From: a virus
Direction: 5' to 3' (one strand)
DNA length: 26,952 bases
Virus record (IMG/VR): IMGVR_UViG_3300035170_000021
Span: 1-26,952 of that record
A model generated the notes under the pieces. That model was not told the origin of the DNA. It saw only the letters and a list, made by a program, of their open reading frames with translations, and searched no databases. A program made the position numbers and the translations under genes. The number at the start of each line of letters is the position of its first letter. The stretch's first letter is position 1. Of this stretch, positions 5,653-23,978 are shown piece after piece.

Positions 5653-5661
5653 GATTGCCCC

Positions 5662-5690: not shown

Positions 5691-5717
5691 ATCAGCACAC
5701 CACCGAAGGAGAACGAG

Positions 5718-5951: not shown

Positions 5952-5954
5952 CCG

Positions 5955-6125
5955 ATGACCGTCACCGAAGCCGCTGCCCGATTGGGGGTGGCGGCTTCCA
6001 CGTTGCGTGTCCAGATCGGCAAGGGAAAGCTCCGCAGCACGAAGCGCGGACGGGATCACTGGATCACCGAGGCCGAGGTCGAACGCTACCGGACGGAGTC
6101 GAAGGGCAAGCATCAGCCTTCGTAG
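5955..6125 (+). CDS. Small MerR/excisionase-type HTH protein (paralogue A)
   Basis: A 56-residue protein: MTVTEAAARLGVAASTLRVQ begins a classic HTH_17/excisionase-like fold, with the recognition helix at ASTLRVQIGKGKL, then the wing KRGRDHWIT and the closing helix EAEVERYRTE. It binds DNA and most likely regulates its own operon. It is paralogous to the genes at 10282-10446 and 23820-23978; by my ungapped count it matches the 10282 protein at 29 of the first 50 positions. Its 3' end overlaps the convergent methyltransferase gene by 13 bases, with no terminator seen between them. Confidence 0.8.
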   Translation: MTVTEAAARLGVAASTLRVQIGKGKLRSTKRGRDHWITEAEVERYRTESKGKHQPS

Positions 6126-7033
6126 TCCTCCATCAGCCGTCGCCCGATGTACTCGACGACTTGCGGAACGACCGCGTTGCCGAGGGACCTAAGTCGGTCC
6201 ACCCGAGCGGGAACCCCATGAGCCACTCGACCCACGTCGGGTTCAGTTGACCAGTTGCCAGCATCGATTCCCGCGTGGAGACTCGTCCAGCCTCCCGCAG
6301 GATCACCGTCGAGAGGCTCTCCTCCACACCCTTCATGCCCTTCGTCCGATCCTGCCAGCCTTGACGGGCCTCGGATGCCTGCGGCGTAGGCCACGATCCA
6401 GACCCGGTAACGGAGGTGCGGGGCACCAACGGCCGCCGCGGGAATGCTCTCCCACTCCGCGTCATACCCGAGGGTGGCCAGGTCTCCGAGAACGGCTCCC
6501 ATCCCGCCTCCCACAAGGAGGCCTGGGACATTCTCCACGAGGACGAAGCGGGGTCGTAGCTCGCGAATGGCTCGGGCGAACTCGGGCCATAGCCAACGAT
6601 CGTCATCCATTCCCCCGCGCTTGCCTGCGACGGAGAACGGCTGGCAAGGAAAGCCGCCGGCGAGGAGATCGACGGGCTCGACGCCAGACCAGTCCACCAG
6701 TCCGATGTCTCCATATCGGGGAACATCAGGCCAGTGCTTGGCGAGGACTCGCTGGCAGAAGGGGTCCCATTCGACCTGGAAGCGGCAGTCCCATCCGGCT
6801 CGCTCAAGGCCGAGGTTCGCCTCGGTCAAGCGCCGTTCAGCGGCCCGCGTCATCCGACTGCCATACGGCGGCACCTTGCCGATGGCGTAGTTGAGTGCGT
6901 TCGCTGCGTCCTCCACCCGTGCCCGCGCCTCCTGTTCGGCGCGGAGGGCGGCGAGGAGATCGCGGACGTCGCAACTGCGCTTGAAGCAGTAGGCATGTCG
7001 CGCCTCGATCGCTGCCAGCTCGTCGGGCGTCAT
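6113..7033 (-). CDS. C5-cytosine methyltransferase lacking motif I, fused to a foreign N-terminus
   Basis: A 306-residue protein with an ATGA start at 7033. Residues 75-306 are a DNA (cytosine-5) methyltransferase: LERAGWDCRFQVEWDPFCQ, motif IV GGFPCQPFSVAGKRGG with catalytic Cys130, motif VI ENVPGLL (167-173), motif VIII GAPHLRYRVWIV, a short target-recognition stretch, motif IX VDRLRSLGN and motif X AVVPQVVEYIG. The SAM-binding motif I (F-x-G-x-G), which should precede LERAGW, is absent. Residues 1-73 (MTPDELAAIEARHAY..., LLAALRAEQEARARVE) look instead like a separate small phage helical protein. The gene appears to be an in-frame deletion fusion and is probably catalytically dead. Residues about 76-299 are also covered by a second open frame. 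Confidence 0.8.
   Translation of the reverse strand: MTPDELAAIEARHAYCFKRSCDVRDLLAALRAEQEARARVEDAANALNYAIGKVPPYGSRMTRAAERRLTEANLGLERAGWDCRFQVEWDPFCQRVLAKHWPDVPRYGDIGLVDWSGVEPVDLLAGGFPCQPFSVAGKRGGMDDDRWLWPEFARAIRELRPRFVLVENVPGLLVGGGMGAVLGDLATLGYDAEWESIPAAAVGAPHLRYRVWIVAYAAGIRGPSRLAGSDEGHEGCGGEPLDGDPAGGWTSLHAGIDAGNWSTEPDVGRVAHGVPARVDRLRSLGNAVVPQVVEYIGRRLMEDYEG
6133..6807 (-). CDS. Overprinted frame resembling a widespread phage protein family
   Basis: A 224-codon frame on the same strand as the methyltransferase but in a different phase, lying wholly inside it. It is not random-looking: SPAAFLASRSPSQASAGE, FASYDPASSSWRMSQASL, FSETWPPSGMTRSG, SGSWPTPQASE and LNPTWVEWLMGFPLGWTDL match, from memory, the ordered motifs of a common family of phage hypothetical proteins. 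Either that family arises by overprinting of methyltransferase genes, or it is a conserved shadow of them. No convincing ribosome site was found for its start. Listed because the motif order is striking; expression is uncertain. Confidence 0.3.
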   Translation of the reverse strand: MSEPDGTAASRSNGTPSASESSPSTGLMFPDMETSDWWTGLASSPSISSPAAFLASRSPSQASAGEWMTIVGYGPSSPEPFASYDPASSSWRMSQASLWEAGWEPFSETWPPSGMTRSGRAFPRRPLVPRTSVTGSGSWPTPQASEARQGWQDRTKGMKGVEESLSTVILREAGRVSTRESMLATGQLNPTWVEWLMGFPLGWTDLGPSATRSFRKSSSTSGDG

Positions 7034-7398
7034 CGCTGGCTGGCTGCCCATAGTGCCCTTCCTGCGAGCGTGATGGCTCGCCCGTCGTCAACCATGTCCG
7101 TCGTCACTCGGATGACGAGCCATCCCCCGATGGCGGCCTCGTCGTACTTCAGGCAGTCGGCCTCGAAGCCGCTGCCGCGGAGATGCCGCCCGTTCGACCA
7201 GCTGCCACCTTCGATCTCCACGGCCACCTTCCACTGCGGCCAGGCGAAGTCGAAGCGCCACTTGCGGCTTGCGTCGAAGCGGTGTTCCCGCTGCCATTCG
7301 GGGTAGCGCAGCTGGCGTAGGTGCGTCTCGAACGCTCGTTCGCCGTCGGAGCCCTGCTCCTGCATGAAGCCTGCCGGCGTCAGCGGGTCGACGTTCAC
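7030..7398 (-). CDS. Small PD-(D/E)XK nuclease
   Basis: A 122-residue protein from a GTG at 7398 (GTGA overlap with the preceding nuclease gene). The core reads WRFDFAWPQWKVAVEIEGG: Asp50 and the E61-x-E63 pair fit a PD-(D/E)XK active site, followed by SNGRHLRGSGFEADCLKYDE and GWLVIRVTTDMV, the usual second half of DUF559/Vsr-like and phage resolvase-like nucleases. A conserved Glu near residue 20 (GERAFETHL) is also typical. It probably cleaves branched or mismatched DNA. Its neighbours, a RecB/Cas4-like nuclease and a methyltransferase, agree with a role in DNA metabolism. Confidence 0.75.
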   Translation of the reverse strand: MNVDPLTPAGFMQEQGSDGERAFETHLRQLRYPEWQREHRFDASRKWRFDFAWPQWKVAVEIEGGSWSNGRHLRGSGFEADCLKYDEAAIGGWLVIRVTTDMVDDGRAITLAGRALWAASQR

Positions 7399-8237
7399 GC
7401 GTGCCCCTTCCGGCTGCCGAGGGCTGCTGCCATCACGTCATCATGCTCCAGCGTCCACGTCGCGAAGGCCAGCAGGCCGCGGAAGGCCGTCCACGCTTCC
7501 CGGTCACCCCGGACGCTGACGAACTCCCATCCGTCGTCGGCGAGATGGAGGATCGCCATGCCCGACACCTGGCGCAGCAGCCGGGTGCGGATGTCGTCCA
7601 CGACGTCGTCGGTGCCCGCGAACTCGGCCATCGTGTAGGCCATCAGCTGGAGGACATGCTCGGAGTAGATGCCGTTGCCCGTCTTCAGGTCGACCGTCCA
7701 GAGGCTGCCGTCCGGGAACCGGCCGATGAAGTCGACCGTTCCCGCGTAGCCCGCGGTCAGGTTGAACACCTGGAACTCGGTGGCGAGGATGTCGCAGCCG
7801 CTGGCGTCGAGCCAATGGCGGAACTGCCTGAGCCTCGGCTGTACGGCAGGCTCCGCGTCCTCGATTGCGAAGCCTGCCGCAGCTGCATCATGGACCGCCG
7901 TGCCGAGCTTCGCTGCCGCATCGCGCTCCTCGGTGGCCGCTGCCCGCAACCACTTGCGCGTCTCGGCGATCCGGTTCTTCTCGGTGACGCGCTCCCGCTT
8001 CCGTGCCTCGCGGGTCATCATCGCCGTCATCGTCTCGAACTCGTCGGTCGCACGCTGGACCACCTTCGAGACTTGATGCGTCGCCAGCTTGTGGGGCATG
8101 CCGGCCATCCGCCGGACGGTCGTCACGGACGGCAGCATCCGGCCCTGCCAGGCGTAGAAGCGCATCCCCGTCTCGGGATCGGTCCTCGCGTTCGGCGGAC
8201 CGGAGTCGGTGCCGATGGTGAATGCCGGTGCGGTCAT
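7395..8237 (-). CDS. RecB/Cas4-like PD-(D/E)XK exonuclease
   Basis: A 280-residue protein; the ATG at 8237 follows GAGG at seven bases. The active-site layout is clear: GTAVHD with His116, an upstream-strand Glu154 in ATEFQV, GTVDFIG with Asp169, TVDLKTG with Asp183 and Lys185, and the QLMAY motif (Gln197, Tyr201). This is the H-D-(D/E)xK-QxxxY signature of RecB, AddB and Cas4-family nucleases. Phage members process DNA ends for recombination or replication. The preceding gene encodes an ssDNA-binding-like protein, so the two probably form an exonuclease/annealing or protection pair. Confidence 0.8.
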   Translation of the reverse strand: MTAPAFTIGTDSGPPNARTDPETGMRFYAWQGRMLPSVTTVRRMAGMPHKLATHQVSKVVQRATDEFETMTAMMTREARKRERVTEKNRIAETRKWLRAAATEERDAAAKLGTAVHDAAAAGFAIEDAEPAVQPRLRQFRHWLDASGCDILATEFQVFNLTAGYAGTVDFIGRFPDGSLWTVDLKTGNGIYSEHVLQLMAYTMAEFAGTDDVVDDIRTRLLRQVSGMAILHLADDGWEFVSVRGDREAWTAFRGLLAFATWTLEHDDVMAAALGSRKGHA

Positions 8238-8259
8238 GTAGTGCCTCGGGGGGAGAGCA

Positions 8260-8291
8260 GGCGGGACGACGAGCCCAAGTGTCGTCCCGCC
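8260..8291 (-). promoter_or_regulatory. GC-rich hairpin between two recombination genes
   Basis: GGCGGGACGAC (8260-8270) and GTCGTCCCGCC (8281-8291) are perfect inverted copies with a 10-base loop. The hairpin lies in the 70-base gap after the ssDNA-binding-like gene and before the nuclease start at 8237. No U-run follows on the transcribed strand, so a standard intrinsic terminator is unlikely. It may stabilise or process the upstream mRNA and lower nuclease expression relative to the binding protein. Confidence 0.6.
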
Positions 8292-8307
8292 CGTCTCGCG
8301 GGAAGTG

Positions 8308-8823
8308 CTACAAGGGCAGCTGGTCGACTTCCTCGTCGACCTGGTCGCGGATGGGCCGCGAGGCCGGTGCGACCGGGGCCGGCGAGCCCTTCGGCGTGAC
8401 CGCCGCTCCCGTGGACTCGGCAACCTTCTTGCTCAGGCCGCTGATCGGCATGGCCGAGAAGCTGACGATGTCGCTGTACCCGGACTCCTGGCGCTGGACG
8501 GTCCCGAGGACCATGCGGCCGATGAGGTCCTTGAAGTCCAGCTTATCGCCGTACTTCGGGGCTCTGCCGCCGAGCAGGGCGGTGAGCAGCGGGAACATCT
8601 TCGACCGCGGCCCCGTCTTCGTGCTGGTCCCGCAGCGAAGCTCGGTGCCGTCGTCCATGTGAAAGACCCAGTCCCAGAAGTAGACATCCTCATCCTTGAC
8701 GGGGTCATGCCATTTGCGCGGTACATCGGGTTGGTCGGGATCGCCCACGATCGCCGACAGCTGGAGCGGATAGACGCCGTCCTCGATGTTCGGACCGGAT
8801 GCGCTGATCTCGATGCTTGGCAT
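8308..8823 (-). CDS. ssDNA-binding-like recombination protein
   Basis: A 171-residue protein. The N-terminal 110 residues look like an OB-fold phage protein of the DUF669/single-strand-binding type: an opening MPSIEIS...EDGVYPLQLSAI, YFWDWVFHMDDGTELRC, TSTKTGPRSKMFPLLTALLG and FKDLIGRMVLGTVQ. A Pro/Ala/Ser linker (about 140-160) leads to an acidic tail, DQVDEEVDQLPL, as in SSBs that recruit partner enzymes. It precedes a RecB/Cas4-like nuclease, a pairing common in phages. The family assignment is by pattern resemblance, so binding of ssDNA is inferred. Confidence 0.6.
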   Translation of the reverse strand: MPSIEISASGPNIEDGVYPLQLSAIVGDPDQPDVPRKWHDPVKDEDVYFWDWVFHMDDGTELRCGTSTKTGPRSKMFPLLTALLGGRAPKYGDKLDFKDLIGRMVLGTVQRQESGYSDIVSFSAMPISGLSKKVAESTGAAVTPKGSPAPVAPASRPIRDQVDEEVDQLPL

Positions 8824-8825
8824 TC

Positions 8826-9134
8826 CTACTTCTCCGTTCTGCGTTCTGCGTTTGTGCTTGCCTTCGGTTCGATCGGATGCTCCTCCACGTAGCGGATATG
8901 GGTGCGAAGTCGCTGGACGTCGCTGACGGAATGCTCGTAGTCGTGCTGGCAGGCGTTGTAGTTGGCCCGATAGTGGCGGATGTCGGCCTCGGGCAGCCGC
9001 TGCTTCTCGGCCGCGTCCAGCAGCTGCCGAGCAGCCCGCATGTCGCCCAGAGCCTCGGTGCGCCAGGCGTCCGCCCGCTCCAGCTGCCGGATGAGGCTGG
9101 CGATCCGCTCGTCGGTCACTGGTTCTTCAGGCAT
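8826..9134 (-). CDS. Helical protein of unknown function
   Basis: A 102-residue protein; the ATG at 9134 lies 19 bases inside the end of the previous small gene. The sequence is predicted helical and charged: ERIASLIRQLERADAWRTEA, ALGDMRAARQLLDAAEKQRL and DYEHSVSDVQRLRTHIRYVE, consistent with a coiled-coil hairpin. It ends two bases before the ssDNA-binding-like gene. No family is recognised. Confidence 0.6.
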   Translation of the reverse strand: MPEEPVTDERIASLIRQLERADAWRTEALGDMRAARQLLDAAEKQRLPEADIRHYRANYNACQHDYEHSVSDVQRLRTHIRYVEEHPIEPKASTNAERRTEK

Positions 9135-9280
9135 GCCCTGCACCTCGGCCAATCCGGCCGGTCGTAGCGGATCGGCTTGACGTAGACGCGGCAGACAGCC
9201 TGCCCGCGGGGATTGTCCATCACGACGAGATGCTGCTGGTTGTCGTAGCCGGATCGCCAGCCGAGGTCGATCCTCAGCAT
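9116..9280 (-). CDS. 54-residue protein with C-terminal cysteine pair
   Basis: ATG at 9280 preceded by AGGGGG about seven bases upstream, which lies inside the 3' arm of a strong hairpin. The protein (MLRIDLGWRSGYDNQQHLVV, then VKPIRYDRPDWPRCRACLKN) has Cys30 and a C-x2-C pair near the end that could bind metal. Too short to assign. Its leader is unusually structured, which suggests that its translation, and that of the overlapping downstream gene, is regulated. Confidence 0.6.
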   Translation of the reverse strand: MLRIDLGWRSGYDNQQHLVVMDNPRGQAVCRVYVKPIRYDRPDWPRCRACLKNQ

Positions 9281-9282
9281 GT

Positions 9283-9406
9283 CGCGCCCCCTGCCAGCCG
9301 GGGGGAAGGTCCGGCAGGGGGCGCGGAGGAGACGTCCAGCTGGTCCCGCCTGGACGCCTCGGGCAGCCGCTGGCAGCGGGCACTACACCGGCCAGCGACT
9401 GCCCGA
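9283..9406 (-). ncRNA. Structured mRNA leader of three hairpins
   Basis: Transcribed right to left, this gap forms three successive stems. First, CTCGGGCAG/CTGCCCGAG plus CGCTGG/CCAGCG (9357-9406). Second, CGTCCAG/CTGGACG (9332-9355). Third, GCGCCCCCTGCC (9284-9295) with GGCAGGGGGCGC (9312-9323), extendable by one C-G pair. The last stem includes the ribosome-binding site of the gene at 9280, which would be hidden when it folds. The order and density of perfect stems exceed what the high GC alone would lead me to expect. It could be a cis-regulatory element or a small RNA; no known riboswitch class is recognised. Confidence 0.5.
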
Positions 9407-9419
9407 GGGGTCATGACAG

Positions 9420-9647
9420 TCACTTCGTCGTCTTCCCGTTCGACAGGAGCAGCGGAATCTCGGGGGTCGTTCCGGCCATCTTGGCGTAGTCCATCTGAAG
9501 CTTCACGATCCGCAGCATCGAGGCCGTGCTATTGACGATGGCGTTCGCGACGGCCGGCGTAGCCTCGCCTGCCTGGAGTCGGCGGATGTTCTCGCCCATG
9601 ACTTCGAGGAGATCGGCTGCGGTGACAGGTGCGATATTCGTGGTCAT
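9420..9647 (-). CDS. Conserved-looking small phage protein
   Basis: A 75-residue protein in an ATGA overlap with the upstream gene. Its body, MGENIRRLQAGEATPAVANA then SMLRIVKLQMDYAKMAGTTP and EIPLL, resembles a common phage family of small helical proteins ending in L-EYAK-x-G-TP-IP. Function is not known to me. It lies between small unknown genes and the structured leader. Confidence 0.65.
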   Translation of the reverse strand: MTTNIAPVTAADLLEVMGENIRRLQAGEATPAVANAIVNSTASMLRIVKLQMDYAKMAGTTPEIPLLLSNGKTTK

Positions 9648-9982
9648 CTGGCAGTGCCCTTTCGTGGGTGGTTCGTGTGATTGCCGATACCGAGCATCCG
9701 GCGCGTGTCCTTGATCAGACGCGCAACCGTCAGCATCTCGGGTGGGAGACTCGCCATCCGGATCGCCTGCCCGTCGATGTGGATTGCCTCGCCCCGACCT
9801 GAGCGACGATACGCAAGCTGGTATTCGCTGAGATGCTCCCTGACGCCTGGCCTGAGATACCAGCGGGCGAAGTTCGCAGCCGACTTCTCGGGGTCGTACC
9901 GATCGCGCCTACGCCGCAGGATGTCCTCTCGGTTCGCCGCATACCACTCGCGCTGTCTGCGCCGCCGTTCCTCCTGCGTCAT
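9644..9982 (-). CDS. Basic protein with HNH-associated N-terminal pattern
   Basis: A 112-residue protein; ATG at 9982 overlaps the upstream stop (ATGA). The start, MTQEERRRRQREWYAANRED followed by ILRRRRDRYDPEK, is very Arg-rich and resembles the leading segment of some phage HNH endonucleases, but no HNH core follows. The middle (FARWYLRPGVREHLSEYQLA) and end (EMLTVARLIKDTRRMLGIG) look helical. It may be a nucleic-acid-binding protein or a remnant. Function unassigned. Confidence 0.6.
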   Translation of the reverse strand: MTQEERRRRQREWYAANREDILRRRRDRYDPEKSAANFARWYLRPGVREHLSEYQLAYRRSGRGEAIHIDGQAIRMASLPPEMLTVARLIKDTRRMLGIGNHTNHPRKGTAR

Positions 9983-10182
9983 GCTGCGTACCTGTTCTGC
10001 ACCGGCAGGCGCTTCTCGGCGGCACGCTGCACCCACTCGGGCGTATCGACGGGGACGAACGTCATCCCGAGAGCCTCGTAGCGCGGCAGGCAGTCGGGGC
10101 AGATGCGGTAGACGAGCCGACCGCGATCGCCGACCAGCCGGTACGACTTCGAGCCCTCGGGACAGCGGCCCTGTGGATGCAT
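9979..10182 (-). CDS. Small cysteine-containing protein
   Basis: A 67-residue protein with a strong AGGGGGG ribosome site six bases before the ATG at 10182. Cys7 (GRCPEG) and Cys28/Cys31 (RICPDCLPRYEALG) could form a zinc knuckle. The rest (VDTPEWVQRAAEKRL) is helical. It ends in an ATGA overlap. No family recognised. Confidence 0.6.
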   Translation of the reverse strand: MHPQGRCPEGSKSYRLVGDRGRLVYRICPDCLPRYEALGMTFVPVDTPEWVQRAAEKRLPVQNRYAA

Positions 10183-10192
10183 CAGAACCCCC

Positions 10193-10285
10193 CTACCACT
10201 TCACGATCATCGCGAAGAAGATGAGCCCGCCGACGATCAGCCAGAAGCCTTCGGCCAGGACCCGCCGCCACGGCTCGTTGCTCAT
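10193..10285 (-). CDS. 30-residue membrane peptide
   Basis: ATG at 10285 in an ATGA overlap with the HTH gene; TAG at 10193-10195. MSNEPWRRVLAEGFWLIVGG is followed by LIFFAMIVKW, one transmembrane segment with a basic N-terminal side. The gene-coupled start and hydrophobic composition support it. Function unknown. Confidence 0.55.
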   Translation of the reverse strand: MSNEPWRRVLAEGFWLIVGGLIFFAMIVKW

Positions 10286-10446
10286 GACGCAGCCCTCAGG
10301 CTCTCGCGGCGATACCGCTCGACCTCGGAATAGTCGACGAACCAGTCCCGGCCGCGCTTCTCGGCCCGCAGCTTGCCCTTGCGAATCTGATGGCGAAGCG
10401 TGGATGGTGCGAGCCCGAGGAGTCGGGCGACGTCGGCGAGTGGCAT
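10282..10446 (-). CDS. Small MerR/excisionase-type HTH protein (paralogue B)
   Basis: A 54-residue protein: MPLADVARLLGLAPSTLRHQ, then IRKGKLRAEKRGRDWFVDYS and EVERYRRESLRAAS. The layout is the HTH_17/excisionase fold, with recognition helix APSTLRHQI and wing KRGRDWFVD. Start and stop both sit in ATGA overlaps, so it is translationally coupled to the 61-residue gene before it. Paralogous to the proteins at 5955-6125 and 23820-23978, aligning without gaps over 50 residues. As second gene behind the promoter at 10665-10638 it may regulate the whole early-type operon running down to 6113. Confidence 0.8.
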   Translation of the reverse strand: MPLADVARLLGLAPSTLRHQIRKGKLRAEKRGRDWFVDYSEVERYRRESLRAAS

Positions 10447-10631
10447 CAGCGGTTGCAGAACGTATGGCTGCCACTGCCGCAGTTCCAGCAGGCTCGACCC
10501 TCGATGATGAGGTCGATCGTTCGCTGCGAATGGCCGCGGGCAACGAATGCGTCAGTCAGGTTCTTCCGGCGCATGATCGCCCAGAAGTCCTTCGCGGCCT
10601 TGTCGACGCGGGCGTTCGGCGTTGTGTTCAT
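10446..10631 (-). CDS. 61-residue protein, first gene of operon B
   Basis: ATG at 10631, with no ribosome-binding site; the promoter places transcription start on this ATG. MNTTPNARVDKAAKDFWAIM is followed by RRKNLTDAFVARGHSQRTID and LIIEGRACWNCGSGSHTFC. Residues 10-45 look like a small helical DNA-binding-like domain, and the C-terminal C-x2-C...H-x2-C pattern could bind zinc. No family named. It opens the operon that also encodes HTH paralogue B and the recombination genes. Confidence 0.65.
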   Translation of the reverse strand: MNTTPNARVDKAAKDFWAIMRRKNLTDAFVARGHSQRTIDLIIEGRACWNCGSGSHTFCNR

Positions 10632-10665
10632 ACACGCACTCTACACCGTGCGCGTACGTTGTCAA
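10632..10665 (-). promoter_or_regulatory. Leaderless promoter of operon B
   Basis: On the minus strand TTGACA (10665-10660), a 16-base spacer and TAGAGT (10643-10638). With the usual six-base gap the transcript starts at 10631, the A of the ATG. The first 11 bases, TTGACAACGTA, are identical to the operon A promoter at 5662-5672. A GCGCAC/GTGCGT near-inverted repeat overlaps the spacer and -10. It lies directly after the last tail-spike gene and so separates the structural operon from the early-type one. Confidence 0.65.
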
Positions 10666-10673
10666 CCCCGTAC

Positions 10674-11774
10674 CTATGGGGTGTTGCCGCCGCCGTTGGT
10701 CAGGTTGGTGTTTGTCCACGGTCCGCTGCCAAGCGCCAGCGTGCCACACGAGCCGTGGCCGTTGCTGTTCTTGACGCTGCCGCTGATCGTCTGCCCCGTT
10801 GGGCTGTCGATCGTGGCATCGCAGCTGGTCCCGGACCACCCGTCGATATCCACACCCGATCCACTGTTGCCGTAGATCAATGCCCATCGGTGGAGGTTCG
10901 TGACGGTCCAGTTGTGCGCGATATGTCCCGCACCCTGCGGTTCGCCGAACTTCTGCAAGCCGTTGACGTGGCGCGAAGTCCCGGTGACGTTCCAGCCGCT
11001 GGTCGTGATGTTCGTCCCGGCGTGGCCGCTGCCCGTCTTGGTGTAGACGGCATGCGACTGGTTGTACTGTCCTGAGCCGTTGTCCACGCCGTCGAAGTTG
11101 GTAACGATGATGTTGTTGACGGCGATGTGATCGACCCACCCGGTGTACAGCAGCCCGAACGACCCCAGGGAGTAGCCGTCGAGCGTGATCGTGCCGCCGT
11201 TGGCCGTGCCGTCGATCGTGATGTAGTCCGTGACGACGACCGGCGTGCCGGGTCCGGCGTCCGCGTTGATGTTGAAGACGGGGCTCTGTGCCGTCCCGCC
11301 GCCGACGCCGTTCAGGGTCACGGCAGCGCCTGGGGCCGTCGTCACCAGCAGCGGCGAGCCGGACCCGCGGGTGCAGTTCTTCAGGACGAGATGGAAGTTC
11401 GGATATGTGCCGGCCGCGATCTCGATGCGCCGGATGGAGGTGTTCGACATCATCGCCGCCAGCGCAACTGCCGTAGATGGCCCGGTGCCGGGGAACGGGG
11501 TTGCCGTGCCGCTTCCGCCGCTGGTGACCGTCTCGGGGAACGTGTCGACTGATGTCCACGTCCCCGCGATGTATTGCTCCCAGTCGATCGTCGAGGTTCC
11601 CGGCGTGCTGCCTAGCTGGATGGTCGTCTCGAAGGCCGTGTCGGCGCAGGCAGCCCACACGACGACGCCGTCGAGCTTCAGCCGGTTCTTGGCATCGCTG
11701 CCGCCCGTGCCGACGACATCGACGTACTGGTCGACGGCCTGGCTGGCCGGTGTTGCGGTGACGACGGCAACCAT
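10674..11774 (-). CDS. Beta-helix tail spike / receptor-binding protein
   Basis: A 366-residue protein with AGGGAG upstream of the ATG at 11774. After an N-terminal beta domain (1-95) it has the repeating short-strand pattern of right-handed parallel beta-helix proteins: IRRIEIAAGTYPNFHLVLKN, DYITIDGTANGGTITLDGYS, DHIAVNNIIVTNFDGVDNGS, TNITTSGWNVTGTSRHVNGL, AHNWTVTNLHRWALIYGNSG. Phage proteins of this fold bind or cut surface polysaccharide. It is the last gene of the tail module, the usual place for adhesins. Enzymatic activity cannot be read. Confidence 0.75.
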   Translation of the reverse strand: MVAVVTATPASQAVDQYVDVVGTGGSDAKNRLKLDGVVVWAACADTAFETTIQLGSTPGTSTIDWEQYIAGTWTSVDTFPETVTSGGSGTATPFPGTGPSTAVALAAMMSNTSIRRIEIAAGTYPNFHLVLKNCTRGSGSPLLVTTAPGAAVTLNGVGGGTAQSPVFNINADAGPGTPVVVTDYITIDGTANGGTITLDGYSLGSFGLLYTGWVDHIAVNNIIVTNFDGVDNGSGQYNQSHAVYTKTGSGHAGTNITTSGWNVTGTSRHVNGLQKFGEPQGAGHIAHNWTVTNLHRWALIYGNSGSGVDIDGWSGTSCDATIDSPTGQTISGSVKNSNGHGSCGTLALGSGPWTNTNLTNGGGNTP

Positions 11775-11783
11775 GTCTTCTCC

Positions 11784-12857: not shown

Positions 12858-12866
12858 CGATGCCTC

Positions 12867-17809: not shown

Positions 17810-18070
17810 CTATCCGACCGCCTTCCTGAGTTGCTGCACGCTGGCGTCCTCTTCGGCTCCCTGGCGTCGGACTATGCGGCCGACTCCGAGTTCGGCGACA
17901 AGCTGGAGTCGCCAACGAGCGAGAGCGAAGTCGTCTCGGTGCCGACCGTCGGGGAAGCAGTAGTCGAGGACCGCTTCGACGGCGTCCGGTGCCTTATTGA
18001 TGGCCCAGTCTCCTGAGATGTCGACTCGGTCGTCGGCGAAGGCTGCGAGGACCTCGACCCCCGCGCCAGC
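17810..18070 (-). CDS. Frameshift extension of the tail chaperone (T part of G-T)
   Basis: Read in the -1 frame after the slippery site, this adds 86 residues to codons 1-118, giving a G-T product of 204 residues that spans 18423-17810. It is clearly gene-like: GAGVEVLAAFADDRVDISGD, WAINKAPDAVEAVLDYCFPD, RHRDDFALARWRLQLVAELG, ending LRKAVG. No good independent start is seen, so expression by -1 shifting is the simplest reading. G-T proteins bridge the tail protein and tape measure during assembly. The TAG at 17812-17810 directly abuts the tape-measure GTG. Confidence 0.8.
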   Translation of the reverse strand, partial: AGAGVEVLAAFADDRVDISGDWAINKAPDAVEAVLDYCFPDGRHRDDFALARWRLQLVAELGVGRIVRRQGAEEDASVQQLRKAVG

Positions 18071-18423
18071 AAAGGGAGCATCACGGCCTCTCGGTAGAGG
18101 TCGTCGACCACGTCCGCGATGTCGGTGGCGAGGTCGATGTCCGACAGGATCAGCCTGGAGATCGCATCCTGCGACACCGGCACCGGCTGGTTCTTCGCGT
18201 CGACGAGCGACCAGGACGCAATGCCGTAGCGGATGAACCGCTCCGTCAGGATGGCGAGGATGTCTGCCATGTCGATCTCGCCACCTTCACCGGCCTCCAG
18301 GGCGAGGGCGTTGCGGATGGCGATGGAGGAGCGGAAGTCCATTCGCTCCTTCAGGGTGACGGTGTCGTGGTCGTGGCGCTGCTCCCCCGAAGGCTTCGGG
18401 GGGCAGATGCACTTGATGTCCAT
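17872..18423 (-). CDS. Tail assembly chaperone (G protein)
   Basis: A 183-residue product from the ATG at 18423 (TGATG overlap with the major tail gene). Residues 1-118 are protein-like: MDFRSSIAIRNALALEAGEG, MADILAILTERFIRYGIASW, ISRLILSDIDLATDIADVVD. Its position between the major tail and tape-measure genes is that of lambda G-type chaperones. After codon 118 the frame becomes Ser/Thr/Pro-rich and unstructured, because the same DNA encodes the frameshifted T-like extension. Ribosomes that do not shift would make this form. Confidence 0.8.
   Translation of the reverse strand: MDIKCICPPKPSGEQRHDHDTVTLKERMDFRSSIAIRNALALEAGEGGEIDMADILAILTERFIRYGIASWSLVDAKNQPVPVSQDAISRLILSDIDLATDIADVVDDLYREAVMLPLLARGSRSSQPSPTTESTSQETGPSIRHRTPSKRSSTTASPTVGTETTSLSLVGDSSLSPNSESAA
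18070..18076 (-). promoter_or_regulatory. Programmed -1 frameshift heptamer CCCTTTG
   Basis: On the minus strand the zero-frame codons CCT-TTG (117 and 118) sit in C-CCT-TTG, an X-XXY-YYZ heptamer. Slipping one base back leads straight into the protein-like T frame. Tail chaperone genes of siphophages use such sites, so position and frame agree with known biology. Confidence 0.8.
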
Positions 18424-19499
18424 CAGCTGACGGGCTCGCCCAGCTGCGACTCGCGAAGCTGGCACGTCACGATGCTCTCGAAGAAGCCCGCGTAGCTCGG
18501 GAGGTAGTAGGCGTTCGCCGTCAGCGTGACGGTCGTATTGCCGCCGCTCTCGCCGTCGTCGCGCGTGTAGTACCACGCCGGCATGCTGATCTGCCAACTG
18601 AACGGCGTCGTCGCACCGACGAACGGGACGGCCGTGAAGATGAGCCGGATGAACCGCGCCACCGCGTCCTCGGAGTACCACGCATCGGCCTCGGAGCCGG
18701 TGCCGACGGTGTCGCTCGTCTTGGCGAGCGTCAGGGCCAGGACGACCTCGTAGCCGGCCACGCCGTACTCGTTGATATCGAAGCTCTGGGTGGCGTTCGC
18801 GAACCTCTTCTGGTCGACGGTCCGCGTGATCGTCAGCGTGAAGTTGTGGAGGGCGTCGACAATCTGACCGGCACCGATCCCGGCGACGTCGTCCGCGATG
18901 AAGAGGCCCATGTCCTTCAGGTAGACATAGGTCGGCGTCGTGTCGACGAACAGGTCCGGCGTCGGCACGGTGCCGTCGACCGGGAAGTCCGTGCTGCCCG
19001 TCGAGGAGCCCGAGGCGAAGCGCCAGGTCGACGAGACGGAGCAGACGCCGAGGCCATCGGGCCCGGTGATCGTCAGGCTTTCGAGGATGCCGTCGCCCAG
19101 CTGGAACCAGTCGGTGAGAACGTCATCGCCGAACTCGTACGTGAAGACGTCCGGCTCGTCGAGGGGGTCGACCGGCGAGGGCTTGTGCGTCCACACGCGG
19201 CCCGTGCTGGCGACGGTTGCCGGGGACTCCTGCCCGCCGAACAACGCGCACATGAGCAGGGGGAGGGAGTCGTAGTCGAGGGCCGGCATCGTGAGCGGTG
19301 CCGTGATGTTCGACGGGCCGAGGTACGGGGGAACCGTCTTGACGATGGAGCCGGTATCGACGTCGGGGTCCGTCTTGGCGAGGTCGACGACCGGGACGCC
19401 GGACATCGGATAGGCGCGGGTGGCGGCGACCTTCGTCCCCATCGTGGCCTGACGGCCGAACTGATGCTTCCGCGCTCGCGTGAAGCCCTGGACTGGCAT
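18423..19499 (-). CDS. Major tail protein
   Basis: A 358-residue protein, with GGAGAGGAG before the ATG at 19499. It begins MPVQGFTRARKHQFGRQATM, the usual start of high-GC siphophage tail-tube proteins, and continues with beta-rich sequence (YLGPSNITAPLTMPALDYDS, VWTHKPSPVDPLDEPDVFTY, FTLTITRTVDQKRFANATQS, ITGPDGLGVCSVSSTWRFAS). It polymerises into the tail tube. It sits before the chaperones and tape measure. A 114-base gap upstream and a strong ribosome site are consistent with high expression. Confidence 0.85.
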   Translation of the reverse strand: MPVQGFTRARKHQFGRQATMGTKVAATRAYPMSGVPVVDLAKTDPDVDTGSIVKTVPPYLGPSNITAPLTMPALDYDSLPLLMCALFGGQESPATVASTGRVWTHKPSPVDPLDEPDVFTYEFGDDVLTDWFQLGDGILESLTITGPDGLGVCSVSSTWRFASGSSTGSTDFPVDGTVPTPDLFVDTTPTYVYLKDMGLFIADDVAGIGAGQIVDALHNFTLTITRTVDQKRFANATQSFDINEYGVAGYEVVLALTLAKTSDTVGTGSEADAWYSEDAVARFIRLIFTAVPFVGATTPFSWQISMPAWYYTRDDGESGGNTTVTLTANAYYLPSYAGFFESIVTCQLRESQLGEPVS

Positions 19500-19613
19500 C
19501 TCGGGTTCTCCTCTCCTAAGTGATACGCCTACGGACCGGCGCGGGTCATGAACCCTGCGTATTCGGTTGTACGAATCAATCGCCCTGTTTTCAGCGACAA
19601 GCGATTCCTATCG
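19500..19613 (-). other. Gap upstream of the major tail gene
   Basis: The 114 bases between the tail-terminator stop and the major tail start hold no gene. A modest AT-rich patch with ATTCG/CGAAT (19561-19576) forms a 5-bp stem. I see no convincing -35/-10 pair and no terminator, but a weak promoter for the tail protein is possible. Confidence 0.4.
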
Positions 19614-20066
19614 TTAGTAGCCGCCGGCAAACCCCCCGATGGTGAAGATCGACGAGAAGAAGACCTCTCCGCTGGCGATCCAGTCGGGAGCGAACTCGGG
19701 GTCGTCCTCGATCCGGCGTGGTTCGAGGACCGTGGAGCCGAACGCCTCGTGCGGACGCTCCCACGTCCAGTCGATGAACTGGTCGACGAAGGTGTCGCGT
19801 TGCGTCACGGCTTCCTTCGAGTCGAAGAGCCCCCACACGATGCGGATGTCGACCTCGACGATCCGCTGCCGGAAGGGGCTGAAGGTGTTCCCCTCGCCGA
19901 TCGTCTCGCGCAGCCGGTCGATGTAGGCATGGGGCGGCTTCAGCGTCCGCGGCCGGCCCTCGTAGACGCTCAGGTCGTAGGAGACGTCCTGCGCGTAGTC
20001 GCGCAGCATCTGACACGACGCCTGGCGCATGTACGTCTCGAACGGGATGCGGGTCGTCGTCGGCAT
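19614..20066 (-). CDS. Tail terminator / tail completion protein
   Basis: A 150-residue protein starting one base after the preceding stop. Features such as RIPFETYMRQASCQMLRDYA, SPFRQRIVEVDIRIVWGLFD, DTFVDQFIDWTWERPHEAF and the C-terminal IFTIGGFAGGY fit the size and beta-alpha pattern of siphophage tail terminator proteins, which cap the tail tube. Its place between the HK97 gp10-like gene and the major tail gene is the expected one. Sequence-level family identity is only approximate. Confidence 0.65.
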   Translation of the reverse strand: MPTTTRIPFETYMRQASCQMLRDYAQDVSYDLSVYEGRPRTLKPPHAYIDRLRETIGEGNTFSPFRQRIVEVDIRIVWGLFDSKEAVTQRDTFVDQFIDWTWERPHEAFGSTVLEPRRIEDDPEFAPDWIASGEVFFSSIFTIGGFAGGY

Positions 20067-20067
20067 C

Positions 20068-20481
20068 TCAGGCGCCGTTGTTCCAGAGCCGGACGACCTC
20101 TGTCGCCATCGGGCTCTCTTTCAGGGCAGCGACCGCGGCTTTCTGCTTCAGGCCGCTGCCCTTCGTCGCCCGCTTGTGGACCTTCGGTGCGAACATCGTC
20201 CTGCCCTTGACCTGGAACTTCAGAGCCCGGTTGTGGGCGACTTCGTCGTGGGCTCGCGTCCCGGCATCGAGGAAGTTGACGACCTCGGAGCCGAGAATCT
20301 GCGCGTCCGTCGCCGTCACCCTGCCGACCTTCACGGAGTCGGCCGTCTTGCCGGTCCGGCGCTTGATCCGCCGCCGCGTCTCCTTCACGTCGGCATCGGC
20401 CCACTTCTTCGCAACGGCAAGCGGCGTCTGCTTGATTGCGTGCAGGCGCGAGGACAGCTGCTGCTTGCCGGCGAGGCTCAC
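20068..20481 (-). CDS. HK97 gp10-like neck/tail completion protein
   Basis: A 137-residue basic protein. The N-terminus is helical (LAVAKKWADADVKETRRRIK), then VNFLDAGTRAHDEVAHNRAL and FQVKGRTMFAPKVHKRATKG follow the D-x-GT-xxH ... ALKF ... G-xxxFA order of the HK97 gp10 family, which joins head and tail. Overlaps the upstream gene by four bases. Its neighbours are the other connector genes. Confidence 0.8.
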   Translation of the reverse strand: MSLAGKQQLSSRLHAIKQTPLAVAKKWADADVKETRRRIKRRTGKTADSVKVGRVTATDAQILGSEVVNFLDAGTRAHDEVAHNRALKFQVKGRTMFAPKVHKRATKGSGLKQKAAVAALKESPMATEVVRLWNNGA

Positions 20482-20684
20482 TTCGTCAGGTCGACCTTCT
20501 CGTCGCCGACCGGCGACAGGACGACGTCGGTCGCAGCTGCCTCCGTCGTGCTGATGGCGTTCTGCGTCGTCACGTCGCCATCGGCCTTGCTGCCCTTGCG
20601 GCGCTTGACGGGCTTCGCCGCGGCGGCAGCCTCTGCCTTCGCGGCCTGGCGTGCGGTGACTGCTGCGCGTGTCTTGTCGCTCAT
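20478..20684 (-). CDS. Small Ala/Lys-rich protein in neck module
   Basis: A 68-residue protein with ATGA overlaps at both ends (20684 and 20478). The N-terminal half is Ala/Lys/Arg-rich and helical (ARQAAKAEAAAAAKPVKRRK); the rest is Ser/Thr-rich and probably disordered, ending VGDEKVDLTK. It may be a minor structural or chaperone-like protein; no family is known to me. Confidence 0.6.
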   Translation of the reverse strand: MSDKTRAAVTARQAAKAEAAAAAKPVKRRKGSKADGDVTTQNAISTTEAAATDVVLSPVGDEKVDLTK

Positions 20685-20980
20685 GTGTCCGTCATCAACC
20701 TCAGGCTTCCGTGCTTGGTGTTGCCGCCGTTCGTGACCGTCACCCGCAGCTGTCCGTAGCAGGCCACCGGACCCCCCGGCTGCCAGAACGCATCGGCCGA
20801 CAGTTCGCCGAACTCGTGAAGCGTCACGTCCTGGACCGCGTCTTCGAGCAGGACGTCGAGCGAGGCGAAGTCCATGTCCCCGAGGTCCAGCATCACGGCG
20901 TTGATGAGGCCGAAGAACGGCCGCTGGTAGGAGAAGCTCCCGTCCACGTCGGTGTCGATGAGGATGGTCCTGCTGCTCAC
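20681..20980 (-). CDS. Head-tail stopper-position protein
   Basis: A 99-residue protein, beta-rich: RTILIDTDVDGSFSYQRPFF, LINAVMLDLGDMDFASLDVL, YGQLRVTVTNGGNTKHGSLR. It overlaps the adaptor gene before it (ATGA) and the Ala/Lys-rich gene after it. Its order after the adaptor is where head-closure/stopper proteins usually occur; no signature confirms it. Confidence 0.55.
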   Translation of the reverse strand: MSSRTILIDTDVDGSFSYQRPFFGLINAVMLDLGDMDFASLDVLLEDAVQDVTLHEFGELSADAFWQPGGPVACYGQLRVTVTNGGNTKHGSLRLMTDT

Positions 20981-21267
20981 CCGATGCCGAACCTTCGGCG
21001 GTGCCCACTGAGGTTGGCCCGGTAGGCCGGGTCCTGGTCAAGCAGGGCAACCGGGGACGTCGGACGTTCGCTCATCATCTCGGCCATCCGAAGGGCCGCT
21101 TGCGCGAGCATGTCGTCGGGCTCGTCGACGAGGTCGTCCCAGAGCCCGACGTCACGCTTGACCTTGCCGATGGCGGCTGACCGAACGCGGTCGACTGTCG
21201 TGTCCCAGTCATCGGTGTCGATGTTCAGGACTTGCTTCAGTTCGTCCGAGGTCGGCCAGTCGGCCAT
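20977..21267 (-). CDS. Head-tail adaptor (connector) protein
   Basis: A 96-residue helical protein: MADWPTSDELKQVLNIDTDD, TVDRVRSAAIGKVKRDVGLW, DDMLAQAALRMAEMMSERPT. The pattern of an N-terminal TSDEL-VLNI segment, a K-V motif helix and a long Ala/Arg helix matches HK97 gp6-like adaptors, which form the ring below the portal. AAGGGA upstream of the ATG is provided by the end of the preceding tiny gene. Confidence 0.7.
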   Translation of the reverse strand: MADWPTSDELKQVLNIDTDDWDTTVDRVRSAAIGKVKRDVGLWDDLVDEPDDMLAQAALRMAEMMSERPTSPVALLDQDPAYRANLSGHRRRFGIG

Positions 21268-21270
21268 CTG

Positions 21271-21351
21271 CTACTTCCCTTTGGGTGGCGGTCCTTTCGG
21301 ACCCTTCGGCTGAGGGAGCATTCCCTTCTTCGAGAACTTGCCGCTCGCCAT
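21271..21351 (-). CDS. 26-residue lysine/proline-rich protein
   Basis: MASGKFSKKGMLPQPKGPKG followed by PPPKGK and TAG. It lies after another Lys-rich mini-gene in the same position relative to capsid and connector. The last 15 bases (CCCAAAGGGAAGTAG) are identical to the end of that gene and supply the AAGGGA ribosome site of the next gene. Likely real by composition and repeat structure; function unknown, perhaps capsid-associated. Confidence 0.5.
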   Translation of the reverse strand: MASGKFSKKGMLPQPKGPKGPPPKGK

Positions 21352-21359
21352 GCTGCTAC

Positions 21360-21461
21360 CTACTTCCCTTTGGGCTTGCTGGCCGGCTTCGCACCGACCC
21401 GCCCGCCGCCCTTCTTGAACTGGAACTTCTGGAGGGCGGCGGGAAGTGCCTTCTTCGCCAT
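21360..21461 (-). CDS. 33-residue lysine-rich protein
   Basis: MAKKALPAALQKFQFKKGGG then RVGAKPASKPKGK. It starts four bases after the capsid stop. Small basic proteins of this kind occur directly after capsid genes in some phages of high-GC hosts. It shares its final 15 bases with the next mini-gene, suggesting duplication or selection for the ribosome site carried there. Confidence 0.5.
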   Translation of the reverse strand: MAKKALPAALQKFQFKKGGGRVGAKPASKPKGK

Positions 21462-21465
21462 CGAC

Positions 21466-23124
21466 TTACGAGGCGACGTTGTACGCCGTGAACGCGGCCG
21501 GATACCACGGGGCCGGCCAGAGCATGCCGACCAGGGCGACGTCCCGACCCGCGTGGGCCGCGTTGTCGACCTGGAGGGTGTACGTGCCGTCCTCGGCCCA
21601 CGCGAAGCCGGACGAAGGCCCGACGAGCGCGTACGCGCCGTGTGCGTCGAGGATCGGGACGTGGACCGCCCGCAGCCCCGAGATGTTGCCCGAGACACCG
21701 CCCGCGACAGTCGCGTCAAGCTGGATGTTCGAGTAGAGCGGCTGGTTCGTGGTCGTCGCCTTCGCGTCGATGAACTCGCCGACGGCCTTCGTCGACAGCC
21801 AGAGCGTGTCGGGCCCACGCCGGATGGCGTCGAACGCGGCGACGTAGGCGTCACCCAGCTGGAGGTCGGCCGGGTCCATCGGGCTCGCGTTGCCGATGCC
21901 GCCCATCGCGTCGAGCAGGGCCGTGATCGCCTCGTCTTCCGAGACGCGGGCGTACTGCTCGGCCAGGAGTTCGACCCACAGGGAGAGGAACTCGGGGCTT
22001 GACCGCTTGATCAGCTGGATCGAGAGGTCACCGGCCCCGGCGATGCTCACCATGTCGAACTCGGTCGTGCCGATGAGCGTCTTGGTGCTGGCGACTTCCT
22101 GCTTCTCGGTGTTCTGGACACCGACCTCAGGCCGCTGGTTGATCACCGGCACGATGAGCTTCGTGCCGCTCGAAGGAGTCGGCAGCCGGCGGGTCGTCGT
22201 CAGGAACGGACGGCTCGGGTCGATGACGCCGATGAGTTCCGTCAGGTAGGCAGGCGGGACCATGCCGACGTTGTCCGTCGTGATGACGTCGTCGAGCGTC
22301 CGCATCTGCGCGTCCGGGATGCGCTCGCCGGTCATCAGCCGGGTTGCCAGCTTCAGCCATTCGCCCTTGCTGATGCTGACCTTCGGGTCCTCGGATGCTC
22401 CGGGGATCACGATGTCGGCTCGGGCGTCCTCCTCCAGTCGCTCGAACCGGGCCGCGAACTTCTCTTCGAGGCTCGCGAGGGCAGTCGCTTCCCTCTCGGC
22501 ACTCGCCGTGATCGCCGACAGGATCGCTGCCGCATCGACGTTGACGCCCGCCACGGGCTCGACGTTCTCGCCCATGTGGGCCTCTCCTTCTGGTAGCGAG
22601 CGCACTGCAAGGACCGTCGCCTGCTCGCCGTAGGCGGGTCTGTAGGTGAGGGCTGCCCCGGTGGCAGCTGCCTTCGTGATGCGGTCGACCGACCGCCCGC
22701 CGCGGCGGACCTTCTGCACGGTGTTCTTCGCGGCGACCGTCTCGACGGAGACTCCCCGGATCACCCGGTCTTCGGCCAGGGCGATGATCTCGTCACCGGC
22801 CTGCGTGCGGGCAACCTTGAACGTGGCGTATGCCCCATCAGGCTGCTCCCAGATGCGGTTCGAACGCCCCTGGGGCCGACGTGTCGGCACGATGTCGCCG
22901 TTCTGGCCCACGCCCATCGCGACGTCGTGCTCGAGCCCTTGCAGGAGCAGGGAGTCGGGCGACATGTGTTCGAAGGAGCCCGGTGCGTACTCCTCCAGGC
23001 CCGATCGCGTGCTGATCGTCTTGTCGAACGGGACCAGCCGTACGTCGATCTCGCGCTTCTGAGCGGATCGGACGGTAACGACGTCCTCGTCTTCGAACTC
23101 GATCTGCTCTGGATCGTCGCTCAT
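21466..23124 (-). CDS. Prohead protease-major capsid fusion protein
   Basis: A 552-residue protein; the ATG at 23124 has GGAGG eight bases upstream, better than in-frame starts at 23139 or GTG 23205. Residues 20-170 are the HK97 U35 prohead protease: REIDVRLVPFDKTISTRSG, LLLQGLEHDVAMG with likely catalytic His66, and VIRGVSVETVA with Ser126. Residues about 197-236 (AILSAITASAEREATALASL, EEKFAARFERLEE) form a coiled-coil scaffold/delta region. Residues about 245-552 are the HK97-fold capsid (LKLATRLMTGERIPDAQ, VPPAYLTELIGVIDPSRPFL, SPEFLSLWVELLAEQYARVS, WLSTKAVGEFIDAKAT, AHAGRDVALVGMLWPAP). Fused forms are known in phages. An internal ribosome site could yield capsid without protease. Confidence 0.9.
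   Translation of the reverse strand: MSDDPEQIEFEDEDVVTVRSAQKREIDVRLVPFDKTISTRSGLEEYAPGSFEHMSPDSLLLQGLEHDVAMGVGQNGDIVPTRRPQGRSNRIWEQPDGAYATFKVARTQAGDEIIALAEDRVIRGVSVETVAAKNTVQKVRRGGRSVDRITKAAATGAALTYRPAYGEQATVLAVRSLPEGEAHMGENVEPVAGVNVDAAAILSAITASAEREATALASLEEKFAARFERLEEDARADIVIPGASEDPKVSISKGEWLKLATRLMTGERIPDAQMRTLDDVITTDNVGMVPPAYLTELIGVIDPSRPFLTTTRRLPTPSSGTKLIVPVINQRPEVGVQNTEKQEVASTKTLIGTTEFDMVSIAGAGDLSIQLIKRSSPEFLSLWVELLAEQYARVSEDEAITALLDAMGGIGNASPMDPADLQLGDAYVAAFDAIRRGPDTLWLSTKAVGEFIDAKATTTNQPLYSNIQLDATVAGGVSGNISGLRAVHVPILDAHGAYALVGPSSGFAWAEDGTYTLQVDNAAHAGRDVALVGMLWPAPWYPAAFTAYNVAS
22573..22589 (-). promoter_or_regulatory. Internal ribosome-binding site and start within the capsid fusion
   Basis: On the minus strand AAGGAG (22589-22584) is followed after eight bases by an in-frame ATG (22575-22573), codon 184 of the fusion, at the exact junction of protease and scaffold domains. 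Initiation here would give a 369-residue scaffold-capsid protein (22575-21466). This would solve the need for many capsid subunits per protease, as lambda does with nested C/Nu3. Confidence 0.6.
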
Positions 23125-23233
23125 GAAGAGAGCCTCCATCAACCCTGCCTTCGCGGACTGTTCCGCAGGGGTGGAGGCCGACGAACCGGCTGGCGACGCG
23201 CGCACGATGCCGGTGGATATGCGATTAACGCGG

Positions 23234-23263
23234 ATTATTGGCGCGGCCGGTGTCAGATGTCAA
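23234..23263 (-). promoter_or_regulatory. Promoter upstream of the capsid operon
   Basis: Minus-strand TTGACA (23263-23258), 18-base spacer, AATAAT (23239-23234). The predicted start near 23227 leaves a leader of about 100 bases before the capsid ATG at 23124. It is divergent from the plus-strand promoter at 23293 and allows capsid and tail genes to be transcribed independently of terminase and portal. Confidence 0.6.
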
Positions 23264-23264
23264 T

Positions 23265-23278
23265 ATCACCCGGGTGAT
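23265..23278. promoter_or_regulatory. Palindromic operator candidate
   Basis: ATCACCCGGGTGAT is a perfect 14-bp palindrome. It sits between the two divergent -35 elements (23258-23263 minus, 23293-23298 plus), one base from the capsid -35. A dimeric repressor bound here could control both promoters. Confidence 0.6.
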
Positions 23279-23279
23279 C

Positions 23280-23321
23280 TCTACGCTAGACCTTGACATC
23301 CTCTCTACTGTGGCGTAGATT
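23280..23321 (+). promoter_or_regulatory. Leaderless promoter of regulator operon C
   Basis: TTGACA (23293-23298), 17-base spacer, TAGATT (23316-23321). Six bases later is the ATG at 23328, so transcription should begin on the start codon. TCTACGC (23280-23286) and GCGTAGA (23313-23319) are exact inverted copies flanking the -35 and overlapping the -10, another possible operator. Confidence 0.65.
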
Positions 23322-23327
23322 AGTCGC

Positions 23328-23501
23328 ATGGGAACCCCCACCAACCCCACCAACGGGACGAAGGTCCCGGAGCGCTGCGCTCATCGCAGCGACCTCGGCC
23401 TCGGCTGCGCTCGCAGCCAGGGCCACGCGGGAGCCCATTGGCTCACCGCCACCCCGGAGGCCGCACGGGCGGACCTCCACCGGCAGGGCATCCGGGCCTA
23501 G
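23328..23501 (+). CDS. 57-residue zinc-binding-like protein, first gene of operon C
   Basis: ATG at 23328, without a ribosome site and apparently leaderless. MGTPTNPTNGTKVPERCAHR is followed by SDLGLGCARSQGHAGAHW, i.e. C-x-H ... C-x5-GH-x2-AHW. This Cys/His arrangement is common in short proteins of actinobacteria and their phages and probably binds zinc. The frame ends at TAG 23499-23501. Function unknown; it lies on the strand opposite to the head genes. Confidence 0.65.
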   Translation: MGTPTNPTNGTKVPERCAHRSDLGLGCARSQGHAGAHWLTATPEAARADLHRQGIRA

Positions 23502-23532
23502 CCCGGAGCCCTCTCGGCAAGGAGAACGCGCG

Positions 23533-23823
23533 ATGACGACCAAGAACGAACGCGGACTGCACATCGACCCGGAGACGGGCGCAACGGTTTACACCCCGAA
23601 GGAGCGAACGATGACGACGAGTGACTTCATCATCATCGCGCAGGAGATGTCAGCAGCCTTCCGCAAGTACGCCGAGTCGGCTGACAACCTGACCGCGATG
23701 GAGGAGTTCCCAGGACAGTTCGCTAACGCGATCTCCGGTCAGCGACAGATGGCCCACGAGTGTTCGCTGATCGCCCGGAAGGCTCGTGAGGCAGCTGGCC
23801 TGCCAGCCCCGGTATTCGAGTGA
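23533..23823 (+). CDS. 96-residue helical protein of operon C
   Basis: ATG at 23533 with AAGGAG upstream. A second in-frame ATG at 23611 also has a strong site (GAAGGAG-N6), so two forms may be made: 96 residues or 70 residues starting MTTSDFIIIAQEMSAAFRKY. Both starts read MTT after a near-identical leader, which suggests a small duplication. The body (EFPGQFANAISGQRQMAHEC, SLIARKAREAAGLP) is helical and not recognised. It is followed by the HTH gene in a GTGA overlap. Confidence 0.65.
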   Translation: MTTKNERGLHIDPETGATVYTPKERTMTTSDFIIIAQEMSAAFRKYAESADNLTAMEEFPGQFANAISGQRQMAHECSLIARKAREAAGLPAPVFE

Positions 23824-23978
23824 CGCTGAAGGAAGCCGCAGCGGTCCTGGGCCTGACCCCGGACACGCTGCGGCAGCAGATCAAGAACGGAGCCCTCCGG
23901 GCCCGCAAGTTCGGGCGGGACTGGATGGTCGACCCGGCAGAGGTCGACCGGTACGCGAAGGAGAACCGCCGCCCTTAG
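23820..23978 (+). CDS. Small MerR/excisionase-type HTH protein (paralogue C)
   Basis: A 52-residue protein from a GTG in a GTGA overlap. VTLKEAAAVLGLTPDTLRQQ, then IKNGALRARKFGRDWMVDPA and EVDRYAKENRRP: HTH_17/excisionase fold with recognition helix TPDTLRQQI and wing KFGRDWMVD. It aligns without gaps to the proteins at 5955-6125 and 10282-10446. It probably regulates the adjacent divergent promoters. Its 3' end overlaps the convergent portal gene by four bases. Confidence 0.8.
   Translation: MTLKEAAAVLGLTPDTLRQQIKNGALRARKFGRDWMVDPAEVDRYAKENRRP

Follow-up and report, generated by a model that had tools for sequence, protein, structure and literature searches.

Operons of the acr-aca type combine a strong sigma70-type promoter with small, variable and unrelated cargo genes and a small helix-turn-helix (HTH) gene that comes last, and their regulators are found recombined with different cargo (PMC9410906, PMC9765179). 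Published Aca promoters carry one inverted repeat (IR1) in the core and sometimes a second one (IR2) up- or downstream (PMC9410906). The regulators Aca1-10 belong to the Pfam types HTH_24, DUF1870, HTH_3/XRE, KORA/HTH_23, HTH_28 and HTH_31 (PMC9410906, Table 1). Repression of acr is critical for replication of JBD30 and of Listeria phages (PMC9410906), so that self-limitation of such an operon has a known rationale. Here we describe three units of comparable layout, A, B and C, each closed by an HTH_17 protein of 52-56 residues, in the uncultivated phage record IMGVR_UViG_3300035170_000021 of IMG/VR, whose full 26,952 bases were analysed and are called the window below. With a probability of roughly 0.7, these units are self-contained, autorepressed accessory cassettes, moron-like in nature, that work in the manner of acr-aca operons.

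The three mini-regulators lie at 5955..6125 (+; A2, 56 residues, with a convergent end to the C5 methyltransferase gene), 10282..10446 (-; B2, 54 residues, coupled on both sides) and 23820..23978 (+; C3, 52 residues, GTG start, antisense in the gap between the portal and capsid genes), and they are the only HTH_17 mini-regulator copies in the whole record. An earlier note on this DNA had called these reading frames, their gap-free paralogy and their HTH_17/excisionase-like identity, all of which hold. Ungapped identities are 56% (A-B), 48% (A-C) and 56% (C-B), and the Pfam profile HTH_17 (PF12728) is matched by A2, B2 and C3 with 35.2, 39.1 and 45.2 bits (E 1.5e-8, 9.4e-10 and 1.1e-11), respectively, against a gathering cut-off of 27. 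The mini-regulator is predicted to fold as a winged HTH (predicted local distance difference test score 90), with RdfS, Pukovnik Xis and BldC as nearest folds (E 0.02-0.05), and the proteins also match the TIGR01764 (NCBIfam) and PHROG excisionase profiles. These matches, the NCBI domain name 'excisionase family' and the neighbouring folds RdfS and Pukovnik Xis would fit excisionases or recombination directionality factors, a role that is nevertheless very improbable: three copies would be pointless, the putative operators sit in promoters, and the idea was dropped since the large window genes covered by the scan, to which three tail genes and many small open reading frames (ORFs) did not belong, include no integrase. 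Relative to the HTH_17 / BldC-Xis family, to which Pfam, NCBIfam and the predicted fold connect them, the proteins differ as stand-alone cassette regulators associated with inverted instead of direct repeats. B2 additionally matches the PADLOC profile mad1 over its full length (E 5.9e-11), although no other component of the MADS system was found among the scanned window genes.

Each regulator gene closes a short operon with its own promoter. Exact TTGACA with a TA-type -10 occurs only three times on the two strands of the window, once per cassette. Promoter A (5662..5690, +; TTGACA-17-TACGTT) was read directly, promoter C lies at 23293-23321 (+; TTGACA at 23293 and TAGATT at 23316, spacing 17), and promoter B (10638..10665, -; TTGACA-16-TAGAGT) heads the early region and has a syntenic counterpart in a relative (L042). 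Putative operators accompany all three: AACGTAGGCG-GGAG-CGTTTACGTT within promoter A (5667-5690, +), the arms TACGCGCAC/GTGCGTGTA at promoter B (10656-10631, -), and, for cassette C, a core site CTACTGTGGCGTAG inside the promoter (23305-23318, +) as well as an upstream site CTCTACGCTAG (23279-23289, +) located 5' of the -35. The cargo consists of A1 (5718..5951, +), a 77-residue orphan with a Shine-Dalgarno sequence, B1 (10446..10631, -; 61 residues), and, in C, the 57-residue orphan ORF C1 (23328..23501, +) and the 96-residue orphan C2 (23533..23823, +), again with a Shine-Dalgarno sequence. The start of A2 follows the stop of A1 after 3 nt, B1 and B2 overlap by 1 nt (TGATG), and C2 and C3 by 4 nt (GTGA). 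The coupled, small and unrelated genes behind sigma70-like promoters that had been claimed are thus present; for cassette C the promoter and the coupling stood, while the description had to be corrected to two ORFs upstream of the regulator (57 and 96 residues) and an extra, divergent strong site.

The same order recurs in other phages. Profile searches yielded 61 non-redundant mini-HTH loci from metagenomic phages, in which a TTGACA promoter with an inverted repeat in its -35/-10 spacer precedes small cargo of variable kind and the mini-HTH gene comes last; most of the loci have a coupled small ORF just upstream, and in 40 a TTGACA-type promoter lies within 900 bp. Aligned on TTGACA, these loci show the repeat in the spacer, for example CTACGCTAGCGTAG (L065) and ATCTACGC-A-GCGTAGAT (L038), and some have, like window C, a second TACGCTAG 5' of the -35. 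The spacer inverted-repeat score of the 40 loci averages 5.34, versus 3.62 +/- 0.13 for shuffles, and exceeds that of other TTGACA promoters of the same phages (Mann-Whitney p 1e-4), several of the top-scoring of which are cassette promoters that lie farther than 900 bp upstream or are paired with an XRE-type regulator. The half-site TACGC occurs in 17 of the 40 loci (0.7 expected). The more alike two HTH proteins are, the more alike are their operators (Mantel r 0.52, p 0.0005), and the covariation persists among pairs less than 75% identical (r 0.37). Operator A belongs to a class with L059 and L033, operator B with L024, L019 and L013, and operator C with L051, L050, L053 and L009. A DnaA-box-like element, TGTGGATAA or a one-base variant, was also seen upstream of the -35 in 10/40 loci (0.07 expected), at 25-26 bp ahead of TTGACA in L008, L076, L025, L050, L009, L053, L012, L060 and L074 and at 15 bp in L033; it is absent from the three window promoters.

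The regulator is conserved while the cargo between promoter and HTH gene changes almost completely. Most cargo genes are orphans of 40-120 residues, unrelated across loci; only seven locus pairs have any in common, among them A1 and the cargo of L069 (45% identity over 73 residues), and B1 shares a C-terminal CWNCGSGSHTFCNR motif with the cargo of L051. Many of the proteins contain CxxC motifs, the coupled upstream ORF of L016 is a C5 methyltransferase by its motifs, and the cargo of L065 looks ParB-like by eye, with no Pfam match. Searches of Pfam, PHROGs, PADLOC and NCBIfam gave no match for A1 (in PHROGs as a longer frame) or C1; C2 has none in PADLOC or NCBIfam and its longer frame none in Pfam or PHROGs, and no close relatives of A1 and C2 were found in IMG/VR. 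That the cargo counteracts host defence is a tentative proposal. The turnover also bears on a reading as toxin-antitoxin-like modules, with a toxic product of the small first gene and a neutralising autorepressor encoded by the HTH gene. Small coupled two-gene operons with the HTH gene last and autoregulated-looking promoters would suit such modules, as would the PADLOC mad1 and methyltransferase profile matches, which represent HTH_17 regulators in defence loci. Conserved regulators with exchanged cargo are, however, unlike co-evolving pairs, versions with the HTH gene only or with several cargo genes exist, and no toxin family was matched, which makes this explanation quite unlikely.

The main coding strand is the minus strand, leading from TerL (26880) through portal, capsid and tail genes to the early region and the left end. 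Only cassettes A (5662-6125) and C (23293-23978) form clear plus-strand transcription units in the window, and B (10665-10282, -) is co-oriented with the main strand at the junction of the tail genes and the early genes (exonuclease, methyltransferase). An antisense orientation to both neighbours was likewise observed in 18/46 loci with called neighbours on either side, as judged with our own rough gene caller. The earlier note had envisaged a distributed switch, in which a duplicated repressor set partitions the genome into a lysis, an early and a head/tail unit. In the form weighed here as a rival explanation, the three proteins would cross-regulate their promoters, and the capsid promoter, to time expression of these units. 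The paralogous regulators that close small operons and the operator-like repeats are retained from the note, and the early region is indeed headed by copy B. A and C cannot drive the lysis and head units, because relative to the genes of these units both promoters face the wrong way or lie antisense. Moreover, the three operators fall into different sequence classes (those of A and B have only TTGACAACGTA in common), and operator C has no second occurrence elsewhere in the window, so that no common regulon is visible; on promoter orientation and the lack of further operators a global switch was dropped for A and C.

Relatives argue in the same direction. Recurrent multi-copy sets had been named as the thing to look for in them, and single-copy relatives as an outcome that would refute the idea. 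Regulator matches were found in 45/48 whole records searched, with exactly one full-length copy in 45/45 (the records may be fragments), the sole additional match being partial and weak (G016), and the closest long relative (TerL 74%, 24 kb; L041/L042) has no HTH_17 copy. In favour of cross-regulation, apart from the position of B and the TTGACAACGTA common to A and B, one HTH gene accompanies two same-operator promoters in G032/L054 and in L030, and the upstream operator of C lies between promoter C and a divergent capsid promoter, 29 bp apart. Divergent repressor promoters of the CI/Cro type with common operators are not present at A or B; at C, the single operator-like site between the two promoters is where a remnant of the switch idea survives. 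As a whole, the distributed switch is unlikely. Separately, L030 has two antisense cassettes (1529-1809, which ends in a GC-rich hairpin followed by a T-rich stretch, and 4683-5156) with near-identical promoter-operators and a mini-HTH gene in the second only; one regulator may serve both. In L158 (G026), divergent TTGACA promoters at ~17188 (-) and 17248 (+) have ACTGTCA repeats in common and likely form a classical repressor switch that is distinct from the phage's own HTH_17 cassette.

Among the cassettes, position B stands out. In L024, L013 and L019, mini-HTH genes with their own promoter and the operator class of B separate the early genes from tail or lysis genes. At the same spot L042 has TTGACA, CTACGC-ACC-GCGTAG, a 65-residue cargo gene and a coupled mini-HTH gene of the HTH_31/XRE type (HTH_31 E 1.3e-5, slightly below the Pfam cut-off), so that position and layout are conserved with an exchanged regulator fold. 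Either different folds read such a CTACGC-type repeat, or the unsequenced part of the L042 genome contains an HTH_17 gene. The early region downstream of B (6113..10285, -) comprises small ORFs, a PD-(D/E)XK exonuclease, a PHROG 503 protein and a C5 methyltransferase, and is probably co-transcribed from promoter B; the terminator scan gave no minus-strand sites from B2 to 6113. The scan likewise gave no intrinsic terminators 3' of A2 and of C3, and an Rfam search of the window had no matches.

Cassette C looks like an insertion into the gap that separates the 3' end of the portal gene from a capsid promoter (23263-23234, -; TTGACA-18-AATAAT), the one further strong site in the window under a slightly different consensus, which faces the capsid gene and is native to the phage group. 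This is because nine relatives (L098-L106) have the capsid promoter in the portal-capsid gap without an HTH gene there. One antisense cassette occupies the same position in L043, L009 and L050. The leader preceding the capsid start (23115-23182, -) is strongly conserved in the window, L098-L106, L043, L009 and L050, and its CCTCC...CCCTGC-GGA..TCC..GCAGGG..GGAGG arrangement pairs the Shine-Dalgarno sequence, with compensatory changes in two pairs (CG/AU/GC and UA/CG); it is a candidate cis-regulatory RNA. L041 has ~5 kb of extra genes (5653-10766) where the window has cassette C, including one for a large repetitive glycine/threonine/alanine-rich protein (8007-10451). The L041 homologues of TerL, at the right end of the window, and of the gene at its left end (394-1578) adjoin each other in matching order, which suggests that the window ends are neighbours and the record a near-complete, circularly permuted genome.

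In-genome duplication is the less favoured source of the three copies. The HTH tree (54 columns) contains no supported grouping around any window copy and so does not decide the matter, but each window operator is nearest that of another phage. Since the three operators are thus closer to sites in other phages than to one another, independent acquisition of the three cassettes is preferred, though not proven. Antisense versus co-oriented placement does not cluster on the tree beyond chance. No relatives were found by tblastn in 50,697 phage records of INPHARED (queries B2 and consensus) or in 72,556 plasmids (consensus query); genome contigs gave no match with C3 and five weak relatives, in metagenome-assembled genomes of several phyla, with the three-protein alignment.

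Several observations weigh against autorepressed cassettes of the acr-aca kind. Scored singly, none of the three window promoters has a significant inverted repeat (shuffle p 0.33, 0.41 and 0.10), and the small shuffle p-values of the arms given for A and B are not counted because these arms were chosen by eye; the repeats become convincing in the comparison with relatives and not at the single promoters. The covariation of operator and HTH could partly reflect joint descent of promoter and regulator instead of binding, and the fold neighbour BldC binds direct repeats. The cargo has no matches to known anti-CRISPR or anti-defence proteins in Pfam, PADLOC, NCBIfam and PHROGs, with no Acr library compared. 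In L024, L026, L013 and L019 the promoter lies directly ahead of the HTH gene without preceding cargo, so that a role as early regulator may be older than that in cassettes. Finally, antisense RNA running from cassette C into the portal gene could itself matter.

On balance we favour the following mechanism for the cassettes. Host RNA polymerase would recognise the consensus sigma70-type promoter and transcribe the one or two small cargo genes immediately on infection. Translation of the coupled last gene would yield the winged-HTH protein, which we infer to bind the inverted repeat in the spacer and, in C, also the second operator copy 5' of the -35, and which on accumulation would close its own promoter. 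Each regulator would mainly control its own cassette, because the operators differ. A and C would represent antisense insertions in the lysis and head regions, and B, because of its location at the late/early junction, probably also sets early-gene transcription.

In architecture, the cassettes equal acr-aca operons, with small HTH proteins (<150 residues) encoded last in same-strand operons of small genes and, across the family of loci, a core-promoter inverted repeat that sometimes has a second copy, in the manner of IR1 and IR2. They differ in their HTH_17/MerR-type winged-HTH regulators and in cargo without known Acr. They are not classed as Aca, having no known Acr neighbour and with HTH_17 outside the Aca1-10 Pfam types. 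Like morons, they are additional transcription units that have a promoter of their own and run against the flanking late genes, to which the window cassettes would add a dedicated repressor and operator. A search of the literature for moron or acr operons with HTH_17 regulators yielded one short mention: AcrVA1 homologues in IMG/VR adjoin HTH_17 or HTH_XRE proteins (PMC6739104), the same two regulator types that are exchanged at position B. It is conceivable, if still doubtful, that HTH_17 mini-proteins form a large undescribed Aca-like class closing exchangeable cassettes in uncultivated high-GC phages, with orphan cargo mainly for counter-defence and several cassettes stacked with mutually insulated operators. 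If so, the combination of mini-HTH and operator could be used to search these phages for counter-defence genes, the covarying regulator-operator pairs would provide a tractable set from which to read how a very small DNA-binding protein recognises its sites, and the stacked, insulated cassettes would illustrate how a phage of 27 kb accommodates several self-limiting units that are independent of one another.

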